From: Pseudomonadota bacterium
Lineage (GTDB): Bacteria > Pseudomonadota > Alphaproteobacteria > Micropepsales > Micropepsaceae
Direction of reading: 5' to 3'
Length of the DNA: 64,000 nucleotides
Assembly (NCBI GenBank): GCA_021804785.1
Contig: JAJZGY010000001.1
Span: 62,001 to 126,000 of the forward strand
Shown: positions 2,691-36,175 of the stretch, piece after piece
Numbering within the stretch: the first letter of the stretch is position 1
Layout of the letters: every line of letters starts with the position of its first letter
The notes under the pieces: model-generated
Databases searched by the model: none
Seen by the model: the letters and a program-made list of their open reading frames with translations, nothing else
What the model was told of the DNA's origin: nothing
Translations under genes and position numbers: made by a program

Positions 2691-3281
2691 TCACAGCCAA
2701 GGCACCATGCGTGCGAGGAGGCCATCGCGCCGAATGAACTGATGGTACAATGCCGCTAGGACGTGCAGAACAATCAGGACAATCATGACCCAGGCCAACG
2801 TCACGTGCACCTGGGCAAAATTCTCGGCCAGATGGTGGCGGTCCGGTGCTGCCATGCCCTGATAGAACCAGAATTTGGGCCAATTGAAGAGGCCGAACCA
2901 GGACAAGGGCTTTGGGGCTCCCGAAGTCAGCAGCCAGCCGGCCAGGGGCGTGGCGATGATCAGCACGTAGAAAAGCAGGTGGGTGGCGCGTGCCGCCAGG
3001 CGCAAGGGCGCGGCTAGACCTTCCGGCGGAGGCAGGAACGGGTTCATCAGGCGCCAAATCACTCGCAGGACACTTACCGCAAGCACCGTCAGGCCAACTG
3101 ATTCGTGAAGGTCAAGGAAGGCCCCTCTCATCGGGTCCTGGCGTGGAAAGTCGCCCATGGTAAGTCCAAGGACGATATTGAGCACGACCAGCGCCGCTAT
3201 CAGCCAATGGAGGGTCATTGCGACCAAATCATAACGCAGCTGTGTGTCATTGGGCACCCGGCGCGCGGGGATCGTGCTCAT
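2691..3281 (-). CDS. Cytochrome b561 family protein
   Basis: 196 residues with four strongly hydrophobic helices, the layout of the bacterial diheme cytochrome b561 (CybB-like) family in the inner membrane. Family His residues that could ligate heme are visible in TLHWLIAALV (helix 1), FLDLHESVGLTVL (helix 2) and near LIVLHVLAALYHQF (helix 4). Such proteins shuttle electrons between quinones and partner proteins. A GAGGAT ribosome-binding site lies six to eight bases before the ATG at 3281, supporting this start. It is separated from tsaC by about 45 bases and could be co-transcribed with it. The redox partner is not evident from the neighbours. Confidence 0.9.
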   Translation of the reverse strand: MSTIPARRVPNDTQLRYDLVAMTLHWLIAALVVLNIVLGLTMGDFPRQDPMRGAFLDLHESVGLTVLAVSVLRVIWRLMNPFLPPPEGLAAPLRLAARATHLLFYVLIIATPLAGWLLTSGAPKPLSWFGLFNWPKFWFYQGMAAPDRHHLAENFAQVHVTLAWVMIVLIVLHVLAALYHQFIRRDGLLARMVPWL

Positions 3282-3425
3282 TCTATCCTCGTACTATGTG
3301 TGGATATTGCGAGGATCGATTTTAGGCGGAGGGGAGGGGAGTTGTCACCTTGGCATTCTGTGATCTGCGCTTGACCGCTGCGCTCATAGCTTTTCATAGT
3401 TCAAATGAGCAACCTGAGGATCGTC

Positions 3426-4484
3426 ATGACTGAAACGGCAGCCCGGACCCGACCGGGTCAGAATCTGGACTACCCTTTTTCGGATCGTCCCGAAACTGGC
3501 GCCTATATTGAAGTCGTTAAGGGGGTCTATTGGGTACGCATGCGTTTGCCCTTTCAGCTCAACCATATCAACTTATGGCTGCTCGCGGACGGGGATGGCT
3601 GGACGGTTGTAGACACCGGCGTGCGTGACGAACCCACGGCTCAGGCCTGGACGGAGCTGTTCGACAAGGTGATGCTGGGAAAACCCGTAAAGCGGGTGAT
3701 CGTGACCCATCTGCACCCGGATCACGTGGGTATGGCCGGATGGTTGGTACGCCGCTTTGGCTGCATGTTATGGATGAGCCGCACCGATTATCTTATGTGC
3801 CGCAACTTATGCTTCGATACCGGACTCGAGGCACCAGAAGAGGGTATTCGGTTCTATAAGGCCGCGGGCTTTCCTGAAGATGCGCTGGAGCAGTACCGCA
3901 CGCGCTTTGGCGGCTTCGGCAAGGGCGTTTACCGACTGCCAAACTCCTATCACCGCATGATTGACGGCGATCAGATTGAGATCGGAGATTATTCTTGGGA
4001 GGTTGTTGTAGGGCGGGGACATGCCCCAGAGCATGTGTGTCTGTGGTGTAAAGAAGCGGGTGTATTTATTTCGGGGGATCAGATTTTACCCCGTATTTCC
4101 TCCAATGTTTCCCTTTTCCCTACTGAACCAGAGGCCAATCCTCTACAGGACTGGCTTGATTCCTGCGCCAAGCTTGAAGGCATGGTCGGCGATGATGTGC
4201 TCATTCTACCCTCCCACAATGAGCCCTTTCGAGGTGCAAGGATGCGTTTGCGCGAGCTCATCGAGGGGCATGAGACCAGTCTCTCGGCACTGCACGTGCT
4301 GTGTAGAGAACCCAAGCGTGCGGTTGACTGCTTCCCAGCACTTTTCCGAAGCCGCATTACGGCCGGAAATTTTGGCATGGCCACAGGCGAAAGCCTGGCT
4401 CATCTCAGTTGCTTGATCGCACGGGATCAGATGCGACGCGAACGCGACAAGCACGGCGTGGATTGGTACACCAGTCTCGACTGA
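3426..4484 (+). CDS. MBL-fold metallo-hydrolase
   Basis: Metallo-beta-lactamase superfamily protein of 352 residues. The metal-binding signature THLHPDHVG is present, with later ligands in VVGRGHAPEHVCLW (His), FISGDQILP (Asp) and LPSHNEPF (His), so the dinuclear centre looks complete. The C-terminal portion after the SHNEPF motif (helical, with HLSCLIARDQM) is typical of the longer MBL hydrolases related to the LACTB2/hydroxyacylglutathione hydrolase group. The ORF opens at 3405, but the second ATG at 3426 has AGGA five bases ahead, so I use it. The substrate is unknown; a thioester or a lactone is only a guess. Confidence 0.88.
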   Translation: MTETAARTRPGQNLDYPFSDRPETGAYIEVVKGVYWVRMRLPFQLNHINLWLLADGDGWTVVDTGVRDEPTAQAWTELFDKVMLGKPVKRVIVTHLHPDHVGMAGWLVRRFGCMLWMSRTDYLMCRNLCFDTGLEAPEEGIRFYKAAGFPEDALEQYRTRFGGFGKGVYRLPNSYHRMIDGDQIEIGDYSWEVVVGRGHAPEHVCLWCKEAGVFISGDQILPRISSNVSLFPTEPEANPLQDWLDSCAKLEGMVGDDVLILPSHNEPFRGARMRLRELIEGHETSLSALHVLCREPKRAVDCFPALFRSRITAGNFGMATGESLAHLSCLIARDQMRRERDKHGVDWYTSLD

Positions 4485-4551
4485 TGAGGAGCTGGCGACA
4501 TGCTCGTCGGCAACTCTTTGCTGAACTCCGCTCGGCCTATGGCTCGTCGCG

Positions 4552-5469
4552 TCAGCGCGGCGGAGTTGACTTTGGCATGAGCTCCGCTTGTGGGGATAAA
4601 GAAGGAGTACTGGCGCCTGACACGTCCCGAAACTGGACGACGTGTTGAGGGTAGGGAATGGTAATTCCGGCTTTGTCGAGCGCGAGCTTGACCTTCTTTT
4701 GCAGATCAAAAAGTACGGTCCAGTAATCTGAAGTTGCAGTCCAGCAACGCACGATGATGTCGACCGATGACGCCCCCAAAGAGCCGACAGGGGTTATTGG
4801 AGCCGGATCGTGCAAAATTCGTGGATCGGAGGTGAGCAGGTCAAGAATGATAGCCTGAGCTCTTTCGATATCGTCGCCGTAATCGATACCAACCGTGAAG
4901 TTTATTCGCCGTATAGGTTCACGAGAGTAGTTGATGATAGTACTGGAAAAGATCTTAGAGTTAGGTACTGAAATGTAAATCAGGTCAGCATCGACAAGAA
5001 CCGTGGTAAAAAGACCAATTTCACGTACTGTACCGCCTGCATCAGCGGCACTGATGTAATCGCCAACCCGAAATGGTCGCAAAAACAGGAGCATTGCTCC
5101 AGCCGCTACGTTGGAAAGCGTCCCTTGCAGCGCAAGACCCACAGCAAGGCCAGCTGCACCTAATACGGCAATCAGGCTCGTAGTCTGCACGCCAAAGCGG
5201 CCGAGTACAGCGATCAGCGTTACTGCAATGATGCCATAACGAACAGTAGTGGTTGAAACCGGGACTAGCGTGGCATCGATGCGCCGACTGTGGGTCAAAG
5301 TGCGCTCCAGCCACCGTCCCATCCAGCGCGAGAGCACAAAACCGAAAATAAGAATGACGACGGCTGCGACGAGATTGCTCGCAGCGCCAAAGAGAAAATC
5401 CTCGAGCCGATCGGGGGTGGACAGCACTGGGGCAAGTGGCAGCGCCGCGACAAGGGCTTTGGGGGACAT
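4552..5469 (-). CDS. mscS: MscS-family mechanosensitive ion channel
   Basis: Small-conductance mechanosensitive channel releasing solutes under hypo-osmotic shock, in the inner membrane. Three N-terminal hydrophobic segments precede the conserved pore helix TM3 (GAAGLAVGLALQGTLSNVAAG), followed by the beta domain (LRPFRVGDYI, then VGIDYGDDIERA) and the alpha/beta vestibule. From the start used here it has 305 residues, close to E. coli MscS (286). The ORF extends to 5547, but GGAGG sits five bases before the ATG at 5469 and the upstream part is not MscS-like. It converges on the MBL gene. Confidence 0.93.
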   Translation of the reverse strand: MSPKALVAALPLAPVLSTPDRLEDFLFGAASNLVAAVVILIFGFVLSRWMGRWLERTLTHSRRIDATLVPVSTTTVRYGIIAVTLIAVLGRFGVQTTSLIAVLGAAGLAVGLALQGTLSNVAAGAMLLFLRPFRVGDYISAADAGGTVREIGLFTTVLVDADLIYISVPNSKIFSSTIINYSREPIRRINFTVGIDYGDDIERAQAIILDLLTSDPRILHDPAPITPVGSLGASSVDIIVRCWTATSDYWTVLFDLQKKVKLALDKAGITIPYPQHVVQFRDVSGASTPSLSPQAELMPKSTPPR

Positions 5470-5596
5470 CGCAACCTCCGGGGTTATGCAGCTCTTAGGT
5501 ACATGCAGAACGAACCATACGGGCATGGACTGCCCAGATGTGGTCAACCGACCTTACAGGAGAAAATGCGAATTAGCTCCGTGCACCCTGCAAGCA

Positions 5597-31266: not shown

Positions 31267-32037
31267 CTAAAGTCCGGCAGCGGTCATCGCCCTCCCTATA
31301 AAGGCAAAGATCTCGGCATTGAGCGGCAACCGAGCCGCTACCGCCGGATCGGCCAAGGCGTCCTTCCAGACAGCACCGGCCCGCGAAAGCATCTGCGGGT
31401 CGCCATCGGTGAAGAGGTCAATCAGGGCTTTCCAGCGACGGGCCAATTCCACGGCCTCCTTAGAAGCCGGATCATCAAGTTTACTCAACCGCTTAGCTTC
31501 GGTCATTAAAATGTTCCATTGCTTACTCACCTCGGCCTGGTCATACGCCCTTTGGTCCAAGACGCTGCGCTCCACGCGTGAGAAATGGCGATTGATGATC
31601 GGTTTAAAAATCGCCTCGAGCTCGGTATCGCTGAATTTGGAGGTCCGTGCCGTTTCTCTGCCGAGATTCACTAGGGCCTCGAGCGACAGCTCCTCGCCAG
31701 CGTTCAAGCGATGTCGCGCCTTGCGAACCAATTTTAACGCGCCGGTCAAGCGTGCGCGCTCCTCTAGGAGTGCGCGTTCCTGGACCTCGAGGATCTCGCC
31801 AAGAGAGGATCCACGCAAGAGGTCCGCAATACGGGTAAGGCTGAGGCCTAAGGCCTTGAGAGCAAGAACCTGATGCAACCGTGCGACCTGTTCTGGGCTG
31901 TAGACACGCCAGCCAGACGCCGATCGTTGAGGGGAAAGAAGGCCATACCGCTCGTATAGTCTCAAGGCCTTGATACTGACGCCAAGCAGCTTCCGGAGCT
32001 CAGCCGGACTGAGGTGAGGCCCAGACACTGGGCTCAC
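31267..32037 (-). CDS. MerR-family regulator with TipAS-type ligand domain
   Basis: 256 residues. N-terminal MerR winged-HTH (SPAELRKLLGVSIKALRLYERYGLLSPQRSASGWRVYSPEQVARL), a linking coiled-coil (residues about 75-115), then a C-terminal helical domain of about 120 residues resembling TipAS, which in Streptomyces binds thiopeptide antibiotics (WNILMTEAKRLSKL, ARRWKALIDLFTDGDPQMLSR). It probably senses a small hydrophobic molecule. It overlaps the VOC gene by four bases, so the two form one operon. The likely operator is the palindrome at 32580-32604 ahead of the operon, now next to an IS insertion. Confidence 0.85.
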   Translation of the reverse strand: MSPVSGPHLSPAELRKLLGVSIKALRLYERYGLLSPQRSASGWRVYSPEQVARLHQVLALKALGLSLTRIADLLRGSSLGEILEVQERALLEERARLTGALKLVRKARHRLNAGEELSLEALVNLGRETARTSKFSDTELEAIFKPIINRHFSRVERSVLDQRAYDQAEVSKQWNILMTEAKRLSKLDDPASKEAVELARRWKALIDLFTDGDPQMLSRAGAVWKDALADPAVAARLPLNAEIFAFIGRAMTAAGL

Positions 32038-32468
32038 GGCAGAATGGTCTCGCGCATCACGGCCTCAAATTCGCGCTGTTTAAGCGGTCCGAAGGTGAAG
32101 GTGAGGGCAAAACCATCCGGGTCGAGGAGTGTGAAATCACGCGCATTCCAGGGCCGGTCGCCAATATCATTGAAAAATGTCGCGCCAATATTCTTGGCGC
32201 GTACTGCCAGGGCGTCAATATCATGCTCAACCATGAAATTGAGCGTCATTCCACGGCCCCTTGCGCCTTGTGATGTCGAAGTTGGGCGCAAGAGCACATC
32301 CGCATAGCGGATCCAGCGCATATGGGCGAATACCAGGGCGCTGTCCGGGCCGGGCATCGCAAACACCGTCGTAAACCCTATGGCTTCGTACCAGCGCTGC
32401 GAGGCGACCATGTCTGCCACTTCGAGGGTTACGAACAGCGGCATGGGGTAGGTTTCTGGCGTGCTCAT
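32034..32468 (-). CDS. VOC/glyoxalase-bleomycin resistance-like protein
   Basis: 144-residue vicinal-oxygen-chelate protein with a single domain made of two beta-alpha-beta-beta-beta modules: PMPLFVTLEVADMVASQRWYEAIGFTTVF, then HDIDALAVRAKNIGATFFNDIGDRPWNARDFTLLDPDGFALTFTF. Family members bind bleomycin-like drugs or perform metal-dependent isomerase/dioxygenase chemistry; the specific role is unknown. The ORF opens at 32543, but the ATG at 32468 (MSTPETYP) fits best. Coupled to a TipAS-type MerR gene, it is plausibly a drug-sequestering protein induced by its ligand. This is inference. Confidence 0.85.
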   Translation of the reverse strand: MSTPETYPMPLFVTLEVADMVASQRWYEAIGFTTVFAMPGPDSALVFAHMRWIRYADVLLRPTSTSQGARGRGMTLNFMVEHDIDALAVRAKNIGATFFNDIGDRPWNARDFTLLDPDGFALTFTFGPLKQREFEAVMRETILP

Positions 32469-32579
32469 GGAGGGCTCTCGGCTCAGCTTCGTTAGACCTT
32501 GTGAGGCCGGTCCTTGGGGCCGGTGCAATGCCCATTTGTGCACCTTTTGCTGGCTTTGGCATCAAGAAATTTCGTATAA

Positions 32580-32604
32580 GCTATATTATGAGAACTAATA
32601 TAGC
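32580..32604. promoter_or_regulatory. Palindrome between VOC/MerR operon and S10 peptidase, at IS edge
   Basis: GCTATATTA-TGAGAAC-TAATATAGC is a perfect 9-7-9 inverted repeat. The host part is TATATTA-N7-TAATATA (32582-32602); the final GC comes from the IS end. It lies upstream of the VOC-MerR operon, and before the insertion would have lain between that operon and the S10 peptidase gene. MerR proteins bind dyads of this kind, so this is a candidate operator (inference). Confidence 0.6.
32595..32602 (+). repeat. Target site duplication, left copy
   Basis: CTAATATA, identical to the right copy at 34530-34537. It also forms the right arm of the host palindrome. Confidence 0.85.
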
Positions 32605-32626
32605 GATTGTATACTTGACACATGCA
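32603..32626 (+). repeat. IS1595 left inverted repeat
   Basis: GCGATTGTATACTTGACACA followed by TGCA; 19 of 24 positions match the reverse complement of 34504-34527. It contains a TTGACA box (32615-32620) that could serve as the -35 element for the transposase gene; no good -10 is visible at the right distance. Confidence 0.8.
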
Positions 32627-32666
32627 ATGGCGGTGCTTACTTAAGCTTCATAAGGAGTTAACCGCC

Positions 32667-33620
32667 ATGGTTGCCAAACTGCCAAAGCGATTTACCGACG
32701 AAGCCGCTGCCCGCGCGCACCTTGAAGCGCTCCAGTGGCCAGATGGTCCGGTTTGTCCGCATTGTGGCACCTTGGACCGCGCGTCGCGCATTGCTGGCGG
32801 TCGTGCTGGCCTCTTGTTCTGCAATGCCTGCCGCAAGCAATTCTCGGTCACGGTCGGCACCGTCTTTGAGGGCTCCAAAGTTCCGCTCAACATATGGCTT
32901 TATGCCACGCACCTGCTTTGCAGTTCCAAGAAAGGCATTTCCAGCCAGCAACTTAGCCGTATGCTTGGCGTCACCTATAAGACCGCTTGGTTTATGGCTC
33001 ATCGTATCCGCGAAGCCATGTCGCCTGTTGGGTCCGATGCTGGCCCGCTTGGGGGCGAAGGAAAGGTCGTTGAAGCCGACGAAACCTATATTGGCAAGAA
33101 AGACGGCAAGCGTGCCAAAACTGGCGGATATGGCCATAAGCGCGCCGTCCTAAGTCTTGTTGAGCGCGGCGGCAAAATACGTTCCTTCAAGATCGGAGCG
33201 CCTACCCGCGACGAAATCGGCCCCGCTATTTGCCAGAACGTGGACCGCACCAGCGTCCTGCATACCGACGGCGCCCAAGTTTATCGTGGCGTGTTTTCGG
33301 TCGCGGCTCACGAGGCCGTAGACCATTCCAAGGAATATGTCCGCCAGTCAGACATTCCAAACCTGACGGGCGCCGAGTGGCCGAAGGTCCATACAAACAC
33401 CGCAGAAGGCTTCTTTTCGGTCTTTAAGCGCGGCATGGTCGGGACCTACCAGCACTGCGGCGAGCAGCATTTGCAGCGCTATCTGGCGGAATTTGACTTC
33501 CGCATGAACCACCGCATCAAGCTCGGCTATTCCGACGACATGCGTACCGACAAGGCGCTGGAAGGCATCAAGGGCAAGCGTTTGACCTATCGGCGGACTA
33601 ACGAAGCCGCAGTCGGTTAG
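32667..33620 (+). CDS. tnp: IS1595-family transposase (ISXO2-like)
   Basis: 317 residues from the ATG at 32667, which follows AAGGAG; the ORF opens earlier at 32622 with no matching family sequence. An N-terminal zinc ribbon (CPHCGTLDRASRIAGGRAG, then CNACRKQFSVTVGT) precedes a helical DNA-binding part (KKGISSQQLSRMLGVTYKTAWFMAHRIREAM) and the ISXO2-like catalytic domain. The candidate acidic residues are D in VEADETYIGKK, D in VLHTDGAQVYRG and the final residue in VHTNTAEGFFSVFKRG. The frame is undisturbed and motifs look complete, so the enzyme may be active. Downstream are the element's passenger genes. Confidence 0.95.
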   Translation: MVAKLPKRFTDEAAARAHLEALQWPDGPVCPHCGTLDRASRIAGGRAGLLFCNACRKQFSVTVGTVFEGSKVPLNIWLYATHLLCSSKKGISSQQLSRMLGVTYKTAWFMAHRIREAMSPVGSDAGPLGGEGKVVEADETYIGKKDGKRAKTGGYGHKRAVLSLVERGGKIRSFKIGAPTRDEIGPAICQNVDRTSVLHTDGAQVYRGVFSVAAHEAVDHSKEYVRQSDIPNLTGAEWPKVHTNTAEGFFSVFKRGMVGTYQHCGEQHLQRYLAEFDFRMNHRIKLGYSDDMRTDKALEGIKGKRLTYRRTNEAAVG

Positions 33621-33670
33621 ACAGCAGGCGCTGGCCTTTATCCGCTGGCGCCGTGCCCGAGGCTACGAAG

Positions 33671-33838
33671 TTACTCCTTTTCGCCGTCCGTTTTGGGGGC
33701 GTCATGGCTGGAAGAAGTAGCCGAATCATCCCGACTCGGCTTCTTCTTACCCTCAGCTTTGTGAGGCGTCGGTGGTGTTTTGAGTAGCCGCCGAATTACT
33801 TCGTCCTCTTGGGAATTTTGATCAGGTTCGTCGGCCAT
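33671..33838 (-). CDS. Small basic/acidic ORF inside the IS1595 element
   Basis: 55-codon ORF, too short for the track. It starts ATG at 33838 with GGAG eight bases upstream and ends TAA at 33671. The product is very polar: an acidic head (ADEPDQNSQEDEVIRRLL), a KTPPTPHK stretch, then Lys/Arg- and Ser-rich residues. Similar short 'DEVxxxxLxTPPxPH' proteins accompany IS1595-type elements in alphaproteobacteria, as I recall, but the function is unknown. Its start codon overlaps that of the passenger gene on the other strand within CCATGG, so only one start can be used at a time. Probably disordered. Confidence 0.6.
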   Translation of the reverse strand: MADEPDQNSQEDEVIRRLLKTPPTPHKAEGKKKPSRDDSATSSSHDAPKTDGEKE

Positions 33839-34487
33839 GGTAGTGCTCCAACATCGAGAAAAACTCAGAATGTCTCGGCGGTGGGGTCCGAGACAACACG
33901 ATATGATTCAGCGCTATTCCAAGGAGGTAGGAGAAGTAGCCGTAGCATGGAATAGCTTCCACTTTCTTCTGCAATGCATTTTCTGCGCCCTTGTGGAACG
34001 AGAAAACATGGCTCCAGGGGTCGCCATTTGGAATGCTATCAAAGCTGATGCTTTGCAGCGAGACCTTCTTGTAGCCCTTGCAAAAACGCGGCTTACATCC
34101 AATAGCCGTCTTTTTAAAAACATAATCTGGGTAACAGCCCAAGCCACTGAACTGGCGAAATTCCGCAACGACGCTATTCACATGCCCGTCGAAACTCCTG
34201 AAGTGTCCAGAGACGTCGTTCCGTGGCACATAGCTCGCCCAGCTTCCATGGAGCGCGTCACAAAACACGGCTACAAGAAACTGTTTCGAACTCTAGTAGG
34301 CGACCTCAACCAATTGTACGTTTACTCTGTGTATCTGAATGAAGTGCTTGCTGGTCGCGGCAATGAGCTAGCATCGCTACGAAGACCTCTACTGCGATGT
34401 TCTCAGCTATTTCAGGAGAAATCCCGTAAAAGCGGTCCTCGTCGGCAGAAACCAAGGCGCCGGCGCCAGCCGAACGCATCTCCTTAG
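33837..34487 (+). CDS. IS passenger protein with HEPN-like motif
   Basis: 216 residues, all predicted helical, with a very basic C-terminal tail (PRRQKPRRRRQP). No close family is recognised. The segment AKFRNDAIHMP (residues 108-117) has R110 and H115 spaced as R-x4-H with a polar Asn after the Arg, the pattern of HEPN ribonucleases, which serve as toxins and phage-defence effectors. HEPN is an inference from one motif and helical content. The start may be 33837 (ATG, overlapping the opposite-strand ORF) or ATG 33870 (MSRRWGP). The gene ends 16 bases inside the right inverted repeat. It appears lower in GC than the transposase by eye, hinting at a separate origin. Confidence 0.7.
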   Translation: MVVLQHREKLRMSRRWGPRQHDMIQRYSKEVGEVAVAWNSFHFLLQCIFCALVERENMAPGVAIWNAIKADALQRDLLVALAKTRLTSNSRLFKNIIWVTAQATELAKFRNDAIHMPVETPEVSRDVVPWHIARPASMERVTKHGYKKLFRTLVGDLNQLYVYSVYLNEVLAGRGNELASLRRPLLRCSQLFQEKSRKSGPRRQKPRRRRQPNASP

Positions 34488-34503
34488 TTATTTTGACCGA
34501 ATC

Positions 34504-34527
34504 TGCATTTCTCATGTACATAATCGC
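34504..34527 (-). repeat. IS1595 right inverted repeat
   Basis: Reads CGATTATGTACATGAGAAATG from the outside in; matches the left repeat at 19 of 24 positions. The two bases CA (34528-34529) separate it from the target duplication. Confidence 0.8.
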
Positions 34528-34529
34528 CA

Positions 34530-34537
34530 CTAATATA
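34530..34537 (+). repeat. Target site duplication, right copy
   Basis: CTAATATA, identical to the left copy at 32595-32602. Host sequence TGGGTGCGG resumes after it. Confidence 0.85.
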
Positions 34538-34615: not shown

Positions 34616-36175
34616 ATGAAATCCGCCTTTGCCGCCGCATTTGTCTTGCTGCTCACACTGTCAACGCGTGCGATGGCCGCAGACGCAACCGGGCCATTCA
34701 AACCGACGTCCGTAAAAAGTACAGGGTCTGTAGTTATCGGTGGGCACAGGATCGATTATCAGGCGGTAGCGGGCACGCTGGTGGTCCATGCCAAGAGATG
34801 GAGCCATACCCCGGCTACAAAGACTGACGATAAGGCCGGGACCTCCGACGCCGAGGCCTCAATGTTCTACGTCGCCTATTTTCGGAGAGACACAAATTTA
34901 GTTCACCGGCCTATCACATTCATCTTCAACGGCGGCCCTGGCTCATCGAGTGTATGGCTGCACATGGGTGCGTTTGGTCCTGTGCGCGTAGTCACTGCCG
35001 ACCACACGCACACTCCCGCCGCACCGTACACGGTTGTCAACAATGGCCAGAGCCTGCTTGATGCCTCAGATCTTGTGTTTATAGACGCACCAGGTACGGG
35101 GTATTCCCGCATAACCGGTAAGGATGCGGACAAGCAGTTTTACGGCGTCGATCAGGACATACGCGCCTTTGCGGAGTTCATTCGTGAATTTCTGAGCAGA
35201 TATAACCGTTGGAATTCGCCTAAGTTCCTGATCGGCGAGAGTTACGGAACAATGCGCGCCGCGGGCCTACCGTTGGCACTGGAACGCGAAGACATTGACC
35301 TCAACGGCGTTGGCCTTCTGTCGTGCATTCTTGATTGGGACCTGATGCCGGATAATCCGGAACTTAATCCGTCAGTTGATCTTCCTTATGAAGTAGCCCT
35401 CCCCAGCTATGCTGCAACGGCATGGTATCACCACAAATTATCTCTAAAATACAAATCCCTGAATCAGCTCATGAAGAGCGTCGAGCATTTCGCCATGAAT
35501 GACTATGCATTGGCGCTACAAGAGGGTAACAGTCTATCATCGCAGCATCGACTTGCTATTGCCCAACGCCTGTCAGCCTATACTGGATTGTCAGTCTCCT
35601 ATCTGCTGCGTGCAAATCTGCGCATACCGTATGGAGCATTCCAAAAGGCGCTGCTTGAGAATCAGGACCTTACTACAGGAACTCTCGATACGCGTTTCAC
35701 TGGACCAACGATGGATCCGCTATCCAAACTTGCGGAATATGACCCGCAAAGTGCCGCTATAGGCTCGGCGTATGTCTCATCCTTCAATCGATATGCGAGA
35801 ACGACGCTGCATTACAGAACATCAGAAACCTATAGGCCAGAAATCCCGATTTACAGCAGCTGGGATTACAAACATAAGCCACCAGGTGCCAGCCATCCTC
35901 TGATTATGCTCCCAAACGTGTTACCGGATCTGGCCGCCGCCATGAAGCGCAACCCAGATCTTAAAATTTTTGTTAACGGCGGATATTTTGATATATCAAC
36001 GCCCTTCTACGAAGGTTGGTTTGAAACACATCATCTGCAAATTCCGCCGTCTTTGCAGAAAAACATCACATACCGGTATTATCGAACCGGACACATGATC
36101 TATGTTCATGTGCCAGCTCTCAAGGAGCTTCATCGCAGTATGGCTGCGTTCATCAAAAGCGCGTCCAAACACTGA
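34616..36175 (+). CDS. Secreted S10-family serine carboxypeptidase
   Basis: 519 residues with an N-terminal signal peptide (FAAAFVLLLTLSTRAMAAD). The catalytic triad is visible: Ser in FLIGESYGTMRAAG, Asp in FVNGGYFDISTPF and His in YRTGHMIYVH. The oxyanion/substrate motif FIFNGGPGSSSVWLHMGAFGPV is canonical. It removes C-terminal residues from peptides in the periplasm, or outside if exported further. The track start at 34493 lies inside the IS inverted repeat and would be an artefact; the ATG at 34616 gives the signal peptide. The IS sits just upstream and may have cut the native promoter, so expression may be changed. Confidence 0.92.
   Translation: MKSAFAAAFVLLLTLSTRAMAADATGPFKPTSVKSTGSVVIGGHRIDYQAVAGTLVVHAKRWSHTPATKTDDKAGTSDAEASMFYVAYFRRDTNLVHRPITFIFNGGPGSSSVWLHMGAFGPVRVVTADHTHTPAAPYTVVNNGQSLLDASDLVFIDAPGTGYSRITGKDADKQFYGVDQDIRAFAEFIREFLSRYNRWNSPKFLIGESYGTMRAAGLPLALEREDIDLNGVGLLSCILDWDLMPDNPELNPSVDLPYEVALPSYAATAWYHHKLSLKYKSLNQLMKSVEHFAMNDYALALQEGNSLSSQHRLAIAQRLSAYTGLSVSYLLRANLRIPYGAFQKALLENQDLTTGTLDTRFTGPTMDPLSKLAEYDPQSAAIGSAYVSSFNRYARTTLHYRTSETYRPEIPIYSSWDYKHKPPGASHPLIMLPNVLPDLAAAMKRNPDLKIFVNGGYFDISTPFYEGWFETHHLQIPPSLQKNITYRYYRTGHMIYVHVPALKELHRSMAAFIKSASKH

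Follow-up and report, generated by a model that had tools for sequence, protein, structure and literature searches.

The window analysed here is a stretch of 64,000 nucleotides from an alphaproteobacterium of the Micropepsaceae. It contains an insertion sequence with two genes besides its transposase, and raises the questions of why the element lies where it does and what the additional genes are for. Our preferred answer, to which we give a probability of roughly 0.6, is that this is a dif-hunting IS1595 element bearing an exchangeable two-gene cassette. The original prediction, made from the letters of the window, had recognized the element and its passengers; the dif target, the overlapping start codons and the recurrence across Alphaproteobacteria with different cargo genes are points that it did not see.

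The element is complete and of the ISXO2 type

The transposase gene (32667-33620, plus strand, 317 aa) has the Shine-Dalgarno sequence AAGGAG immediately 5' of it. Its product matches the IS1595 DDE domain (PF12762, 7e-31), the N-terminal zinc ribbon (PF12760, 2e-12) and the NCBIfam model NF033547 (2e-52, 178 bits against a cut-off of 75). Terminal inverted repeats of 25 bp (19/25 identical, 6 mismatches) enclose the element. The left one, AGCGATTGTATACTTGACACATGCA, is located at 32602-32626 on the plus strand, and the right one, reading inward GGCGATTATGTACATGAGAAATGCA, at 34504-34528 on the minus strand. The left repeat contains a TTGACA that points inward, and many relatives have such a TTGACA at each of their two ends. 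The predicted completeness of this IS1595-family element, its target duplication and its passengers other than the transposase are borne out by the repeats, the Pfam and NCBIfam domains and the relatives. The predicted repeat pair (32603-32626 and 34504-34527, 19/24) is present, and so are the 55-residue minus-strand ORF (33671-33838) and the 216-residue helical ORF (33837-34487).

The perfect 8-bp duplication also exists, but its sequence is ACTAATAT and not CTAATATA as first read. Intact relatives with perfect 8-bp duplications begin with GGCGATT, which places the ends of the window element at 32602 and 34528 (1927 bp, plus strand) and makes ACTAATAT the duplicated sequence, at 32594-32601 and 34529-34536. 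The left tip base is by coincidence A instead of G, so that the direct repeat appears to be 9 bp long and the earlier register was off by one. The CTAATATA duplication with a 2-base overhang was accordingly replaced, and the relatives' register settled the two bases that had been left uncertain at the right end. An orthologous empty site, which the original prediction had proposed to look for, was found in a sister genome (G061, contig C822), and it agrees with the right copy of the duplication. There the two flanks are joined directly and no passenger is present; neither different flanks nor passengers without the transposase were seen at this allele.

With its 8-bp duplication and terminal repeats of about 24 bp, both of which are likewise found in its relatives, the window element is a real and complete ISXO2-type IS1595 element. 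It is single-copy in its own genome (G000:C38). Fifty-one related elements have the small ORF together with repeat-and-duplication boundaries, and the duplication is perfect in most of them, a recurrence far above what chance would produce. Passenger genes are already known within the IS1595 family.

A second reading frame runs across the transposase stop in the window (33620-33720) and in many relatives, with the conserved sequence PIGGLTKPxTxKQxAxxFxxWR.... The window version (...RQQALAFIRWRRARGYEVTPFRRPFWGRHGWKK) ends at about 33720; the frame may represent the tail of the transposase after a frameshift. At just this point the DNA of sister elements ceases to be homologous.

The insertion target is the chromosomal dif site

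The right flank was used as a query against 69 genomes of the same genus. This search returned orthologous S10 peptidase loci, with an IS1595 element beside the S10 gene in some of the species. When the orthologous loci were aligned, a 27-bp near-palindrome at 32570-32596 was conserved, whereas the neighbouring DNA was only about 70% identical. The near-palindrome has the 11-6-11 arrangement of dif, and the full site, ATTTCGTATAA-GCTATA-TTATGAGAACT, occupies 32569-32596 on the plus strand (XerC arm ATTTCGTATAA, 32569-32579; spacer GCTATA, 32580-32585; XerD arm TTATGAGAACT, 32586-32596). Of the 69 congeneric genomes, 64 have the dif motif exactly once, G061 has it twice and four lack it; a reversed control pattern was found in none of the 69. 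Consistently, the cumulative GC skew of the window stays about level to about 34 kb and falls steadily beyond that point (skew mostly negative), as expected at the terminus. The arm layout is the same as in the dif site of A. baumannii, TGTTCGTATAA-TGTATA-TTATGTTAAAT (PMC10132070).

The host genes around the site are also informative. The S10-type serine carboxypeptidase gene (34616-36175, plus strand, PF00450) is a conserved neighbour of dif, being near it also in G041, G054, G061 and G029. On the other side lie a glyoxalase-like (VOC) gene (32034-32468, minus strand, PF00903) and a MerR/TipAS-type regulator gene (31267-32037, minus strand, PF13411), the latter conserved near dif in G041, G054 and G061.

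Related elements insert at one fixed distance from dif

To read the target across the genus, 66 dif sites were inspected, the window included; two were too near a contig edge to judge. An IS1595 inverted-repeat end was found 5 bp past the XerD arm at 13 of these 66 sites (the window counted), and no IS1595 end was found at any other dif offset among the 66. The dif-adjacent elements occur in both orientations, and relatives of the window element use this position in a dozen further species. The ends of dif-adjacent elements adjoin sequences with 0-3 mismatches to the 23-position dif consensus, versus at least 9 in random 60-bp flanks. The final 3 bp of the XerD arm are also the first three bases of the left copy of the 8-bp duplication, and dif therefore remains whole after insertion, in the window on the left side of the element. 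Both states of the site were seen in the metagenome-assembled G061, in which dif is occupied on contig C871, by an element with an 87-88% identical transposase in the orientation opposite to the window, and empty on contig C822. Two distant relatives (L049 and L090) are on the XerC side of dif-like sites. Some related copies lie away from dif (G061:C354 and L013), so dif is a strong preference and not an absolute target. Judged from these sites, it is almost certain that this transposase lineage has a fixed insertion point, located 5 bp beyond the XerD arm of chromosomal dif, and uses it repeatedly.

At two places, G029:C8 (L217) and G040:C157 (L227), an IS1595 end has the dif offset and a transposase was not detected within the available flank. 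These ends are possibly relics, non-autonomous copies or contig breaks.

A small gene and a divergent cargo gene share their start

The 55-aa ORF (33671-33838, minus strand) is a real gene by the conservation of its coding sequence. With a profile built from relatives, 68 of 85 related elements were found to have it, 3' of the transposase and encoded on the other strand. It lies within the repeat-bounded element wherever boundaries were located, and a few extra copies lie outside. Conservation at the three codon positions was 0.47/0.57/0.35, with the third position lowest, and the conserved residues VLRRMLKTPPxP use all synonymous codons. These two results ruled out that the small ORF is an antisense artefact of the cargo frame. 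The protein has a helix motif, EDEVxRRxLKTPPxPHK, and a polar charged tail. It matched no Pfam, NCBIfam or PHROG family (one relative had a Pfam match at 0.055), and assignment to a known family was dropped. An independent search of 115 alphaproteobacterial genomes with the small protein, leaving the transposase aside, gave 14 matches apart from its own copy, of which 9 adjoined an IS1595 transposase; one small-plus-cargo pair, in G153, is apparently free-standing.

A single CATG at 33836-33839 contains the overlapping start codons of both genes, with the small gene read from the minus strand and the cargo gene from the plus strand. The same start overlap with a divergent cargo gene was found in 49 of the 68 relatives having the small gene, compared with roughly a tenth expected by chance for an in-frame overlap (our estimate). 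The Gs of the cargo Shine-Dalgarno sequence are at -10/-9 inside the small gene, and this position supports the assigned cargo start. In L049 the small/cargo pair is inverted as a unit, with CATG retained.

Comparison of sister elements indicates how the pair moves. The transposases of the window, G061:C354 and G061:C871 are 88-90% identical, and the DNA is 83-87% identical until about 100 bp past the transposase gene. Beyond that point the three elements are unrelated until the last 25-28 bp, which are the right repeat. In the other direction, related cargos sit on transposases that are no closer than average. A swapped block on near-identical transposases, together with related cargos on unrelated transposases, indicates that the cassette has been exchanged between element backbones. 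It is thus highly probable that the conserved small gene and the divergent cargo, with their overlapping starts, form an exchangeable cassette.

Near an IS1595 transposase, the closest congeneric relative of the window cargo is L003 in G049:C43 (34%). Its partner is a different small protein (MTTSKTRKSEFF...), and the CATG overlap is found there again.

The cargo is probably a HEPN-like protein

The cargo gene (33837-34487, plus strand) encodes 216 aa. Forty cargo proteins were aligned with a mean identity of 13%, and only R110 and H115 (window numbering; RNDAIH in the window) were invariant (40/40). The R-x4-H motif is a hallmark of HEPN RNases, and the cargo contains the R-x4-6-H motif of the HEPN superfamily. 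Weak family matches were obtained for the cargos of single relatives (HEPN_RiboL-PSP, 9e-6; HEPN_Apea, 0.009) and of two relatives (CARF_HEPN, 3e-4). Profile comparison of the cargo with RiboL-PSP HEPN gave E values of 0.001-0.002, centred on the motif, and about 1 for a shuffled control. AF2 models of two cargos were helical, with pLDDT of 75 (the window cargo) and 88. In these features, namely the predicted helical structure, the R-x4-H motif and the weak profile similarity at the motif, the cargo resembles RNases of the HEPN superfamily (HEPN_RiboL-PSP PF18735, Apea-HEPN, CARF-HEPN/Csx1). It differs from them in having no curated family match and no significant fold match.

The window cargo gave no significant Pfam, NCBIfam or PADLOC match, and its profile matched nothing meaningful among PDB sequences. 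The catalogued PADLOC defence models matched none of the window proteins; among relatives the matches were weak, several of them of HEPN type. Structure search of the two AF2 models found no match in the PDB at E<0.001 and nothing significant in viral libraries (best A0A4Y5TZQ9, unnamed, E 2e-3). The hhalign comparison gave no signal to DUF4145 or classical HEPN (PF05168), and known HEPN families also missed each other, which makes this comparison uninformative. As no solved structure was matched significantly, HEPN membership is likely but not proven; from motif and profile, we consider that the cargo probably belongs to HEPN.

Other elements carry other proteins. A few cargos are not HEPN-like (L061, L064, L066, L110, L013 and L054). 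In the IS1595 element L111 the cargo is a DUF3800 protein, its small partner is a different one, and the start is again CATG; a SocA/Panacea protein is found as cargo in or beside the L098 element. PIN-domain proteins together with small charged proteins are found on plasmids of Roseomonas (L303) and Methylobacterium (L305); element ends were found only for Roseomonas.

Alternative explanations of the insertion and of the cassette

Two explanations of the position do without dif hunting by a transposase. An ordinary insertion that fell near dif by chance would fit the related copies located elsewhere, but chance would hardly yield one exact base offset at 13 of 66 sites and no other offset, which makes this reading very improbable. 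A dif module mobilized by Xer (IMEX/pdif type), and not produced by transposition, would equally place a block against dif. The block is, however, flanked by an 8-bp duplication and inverted repeats and contains a DDE transposase; there is a single adjacent dif copy with no second, and either orientation occurs. We regard Xer mobilization as extremely unlikely. In the preferred reading, the transposase lineage lands 5 bp outside the XerD arm and the 8-bp duplication leaves dif whole, as the comparison of sites shows. The dif site may be a safe, always-present and non-coding target, so that hunting for it would cost the host little.

The role of the cassette is less clear-cut. It might act on behalf of the element, with transposition regulated by the small protein or by transcription over the overlapping starts, and with the cargo as an accessory factor for transposition or target choice. 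The small gene is conserved while the cargo varies and is mostly beside IS1595 transposases, and the inward TTGACA in the repeats also fits such a role. In contrast, elements at the identical dif offset have unrelated cargo, so cargo cannot determine the target; the L049 cassette was inverted as a unit with CATG kept; and the recurring cargo types (HEPN motif, PIN, DUF3800) are nuclease or toxin types. We find an element-serving cassette rather unlikely. Alternatively, cargo and small protein might form a true cognate toxin-antitoxin pair, with the HEPN-like cargo acting as a toxin that the small protein specifically neutralizes. In favour of this are the repeated joint occurrence of the two small neighbouring genes and their overlapping start codons, the RNase-type motif of the cargo, and the retention of the IS in the genome that addiction would bring. 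However, the Mantel correlation between small protein and cargo was -0.01, in a test of low power with saturated cargo distances; likewise, no correlation was seen among cargo, small protein and transposase, again with saturated cargo distances. That the small protein does not track the cargo argues, within the low power of the test, against a strictly cognate pair. Moreover, one small-protein family is joined to HEPN-like and unlike cargo, and the divergent overlap differs from the usual toxin-antitoxin operon layout. A cognate pair also seems rather unlikely.

For the dif-hunting element with an exchangeable cassette, we suggest that the cargo would be an effector of RNase type, namely HEPN in the window element and PIN or DUF3800 in relatives, and that cargo and small protein may together constitute a toxin/defence or addiction module. 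Owing to the shared start, the two transcripts would be mutually antisense, which may balance expression of the small and cargo genes. That the cassette serves as a toxin or in defence is possible, at slightly below even odds. More tentatively still, a widespread alphaproteobacterial IS1595 lineage may use dif as its landing site and spread new two-gene anti-phage or addiction cassettes, in which a promiscuous small-protein family is combined with interchangeable RNase-type effectors (HEPN, PIN, DUF3800) through CATG.

Comparison with known mobile elements

The ISAjo2/ISAba71 group of the IS1202 family has been described as 'dif site hunters' (PMC10132070). ISAjo2-type elements land 5 bp away from a Xer arm, either at dif on the chromosome or at pdif on plasmids, without disrupting the site; they are on the XerC side, in one orientation, with short duplications (5 bp, or 3-5 bp across the IS1202/ISAjo2 group) (PMC10132070). 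The window element likewise lies 5 bp from a Xer arm with dif intact. Its lineage differs in having an IS1595 transposase, the XerD side, both orientations and an 8-bp duplication, and by side, orientation, duplication and transposase the window element does not belong to the IS1202/ISAjo2 group. It shares the transposase domains, the 8-bp duplication and the inverted repeats of about 24 bp with the ISXO2-like IS1595 family, and differs in its fixed insertion by dif and in the CATG-linked small-protein/cargo cassette. Among open-licence PMC papers, none was found on IS1595 with a dif site, on ISXO2 with HEPN, or on this passenger set. Tn3-family transposons are reported to contain toxin-antitoxin pairs (PMC7157771). 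Compared with these pairs, the window lineage similarly has toxin-type genes inside the element body, but its transposase is of another family, its starts are divergent and overlapping, and one small family is combined with many cargos.

That dif hunting also occurs outside IS1202, with another geometry and in a DDE family unrelated to it, suggests that small mobile elements generally find a refuge at dif, and the target choice of IS1595 becomes directly testable. The cassette points to a minimal IS that shuttles rapidly diversifying nuclease-like genes between genomes while retaining its own ends. The HEPN-like proteins, so far uncharacterized, and their conserved tiny partner provide a set of candidates for assays of toxicity or of defence against phages. 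The divergent overlapping starts, with the cargo ribosome-binding site in the partner gene, are an unusual regulatory layout kept across many elements.

Other targets and plasmid-borne relatives

In different genomes, three elements (L043, L044/L015 and L098) lie at a distance of 7 bp from a TGCGGTATTATAATACCGCA-like palindrome, close to ribosomal protein genes resembling rplM/rpsI, and this palindrome is a second recurrent target. It hints at a general guidance of this transposase by inverted repeats. The Rhizobiales-type group (L058-L114), with inverted-repeat ends CCTAATTA, is found in TAGG-N8-CCTA-like sites. An Rfam search of the target flanks of this group matched no family; the sites often adjoin a recurrent GTCAAGG / CCTTGAC...GTGACGG.

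On the Roseomonas plasmid (L303, NZ_CP061092.1), positions 2915-5518 form a complete IS1595 element with the target duplication TATCTTTA. It encodes a 266-aa protein of unknown function, the PIN-domain protein and a charged protein of 61 aa. On the Methylobacterium plasmid (L305), a comparable set of genes adjoins the IS1595 transposase.
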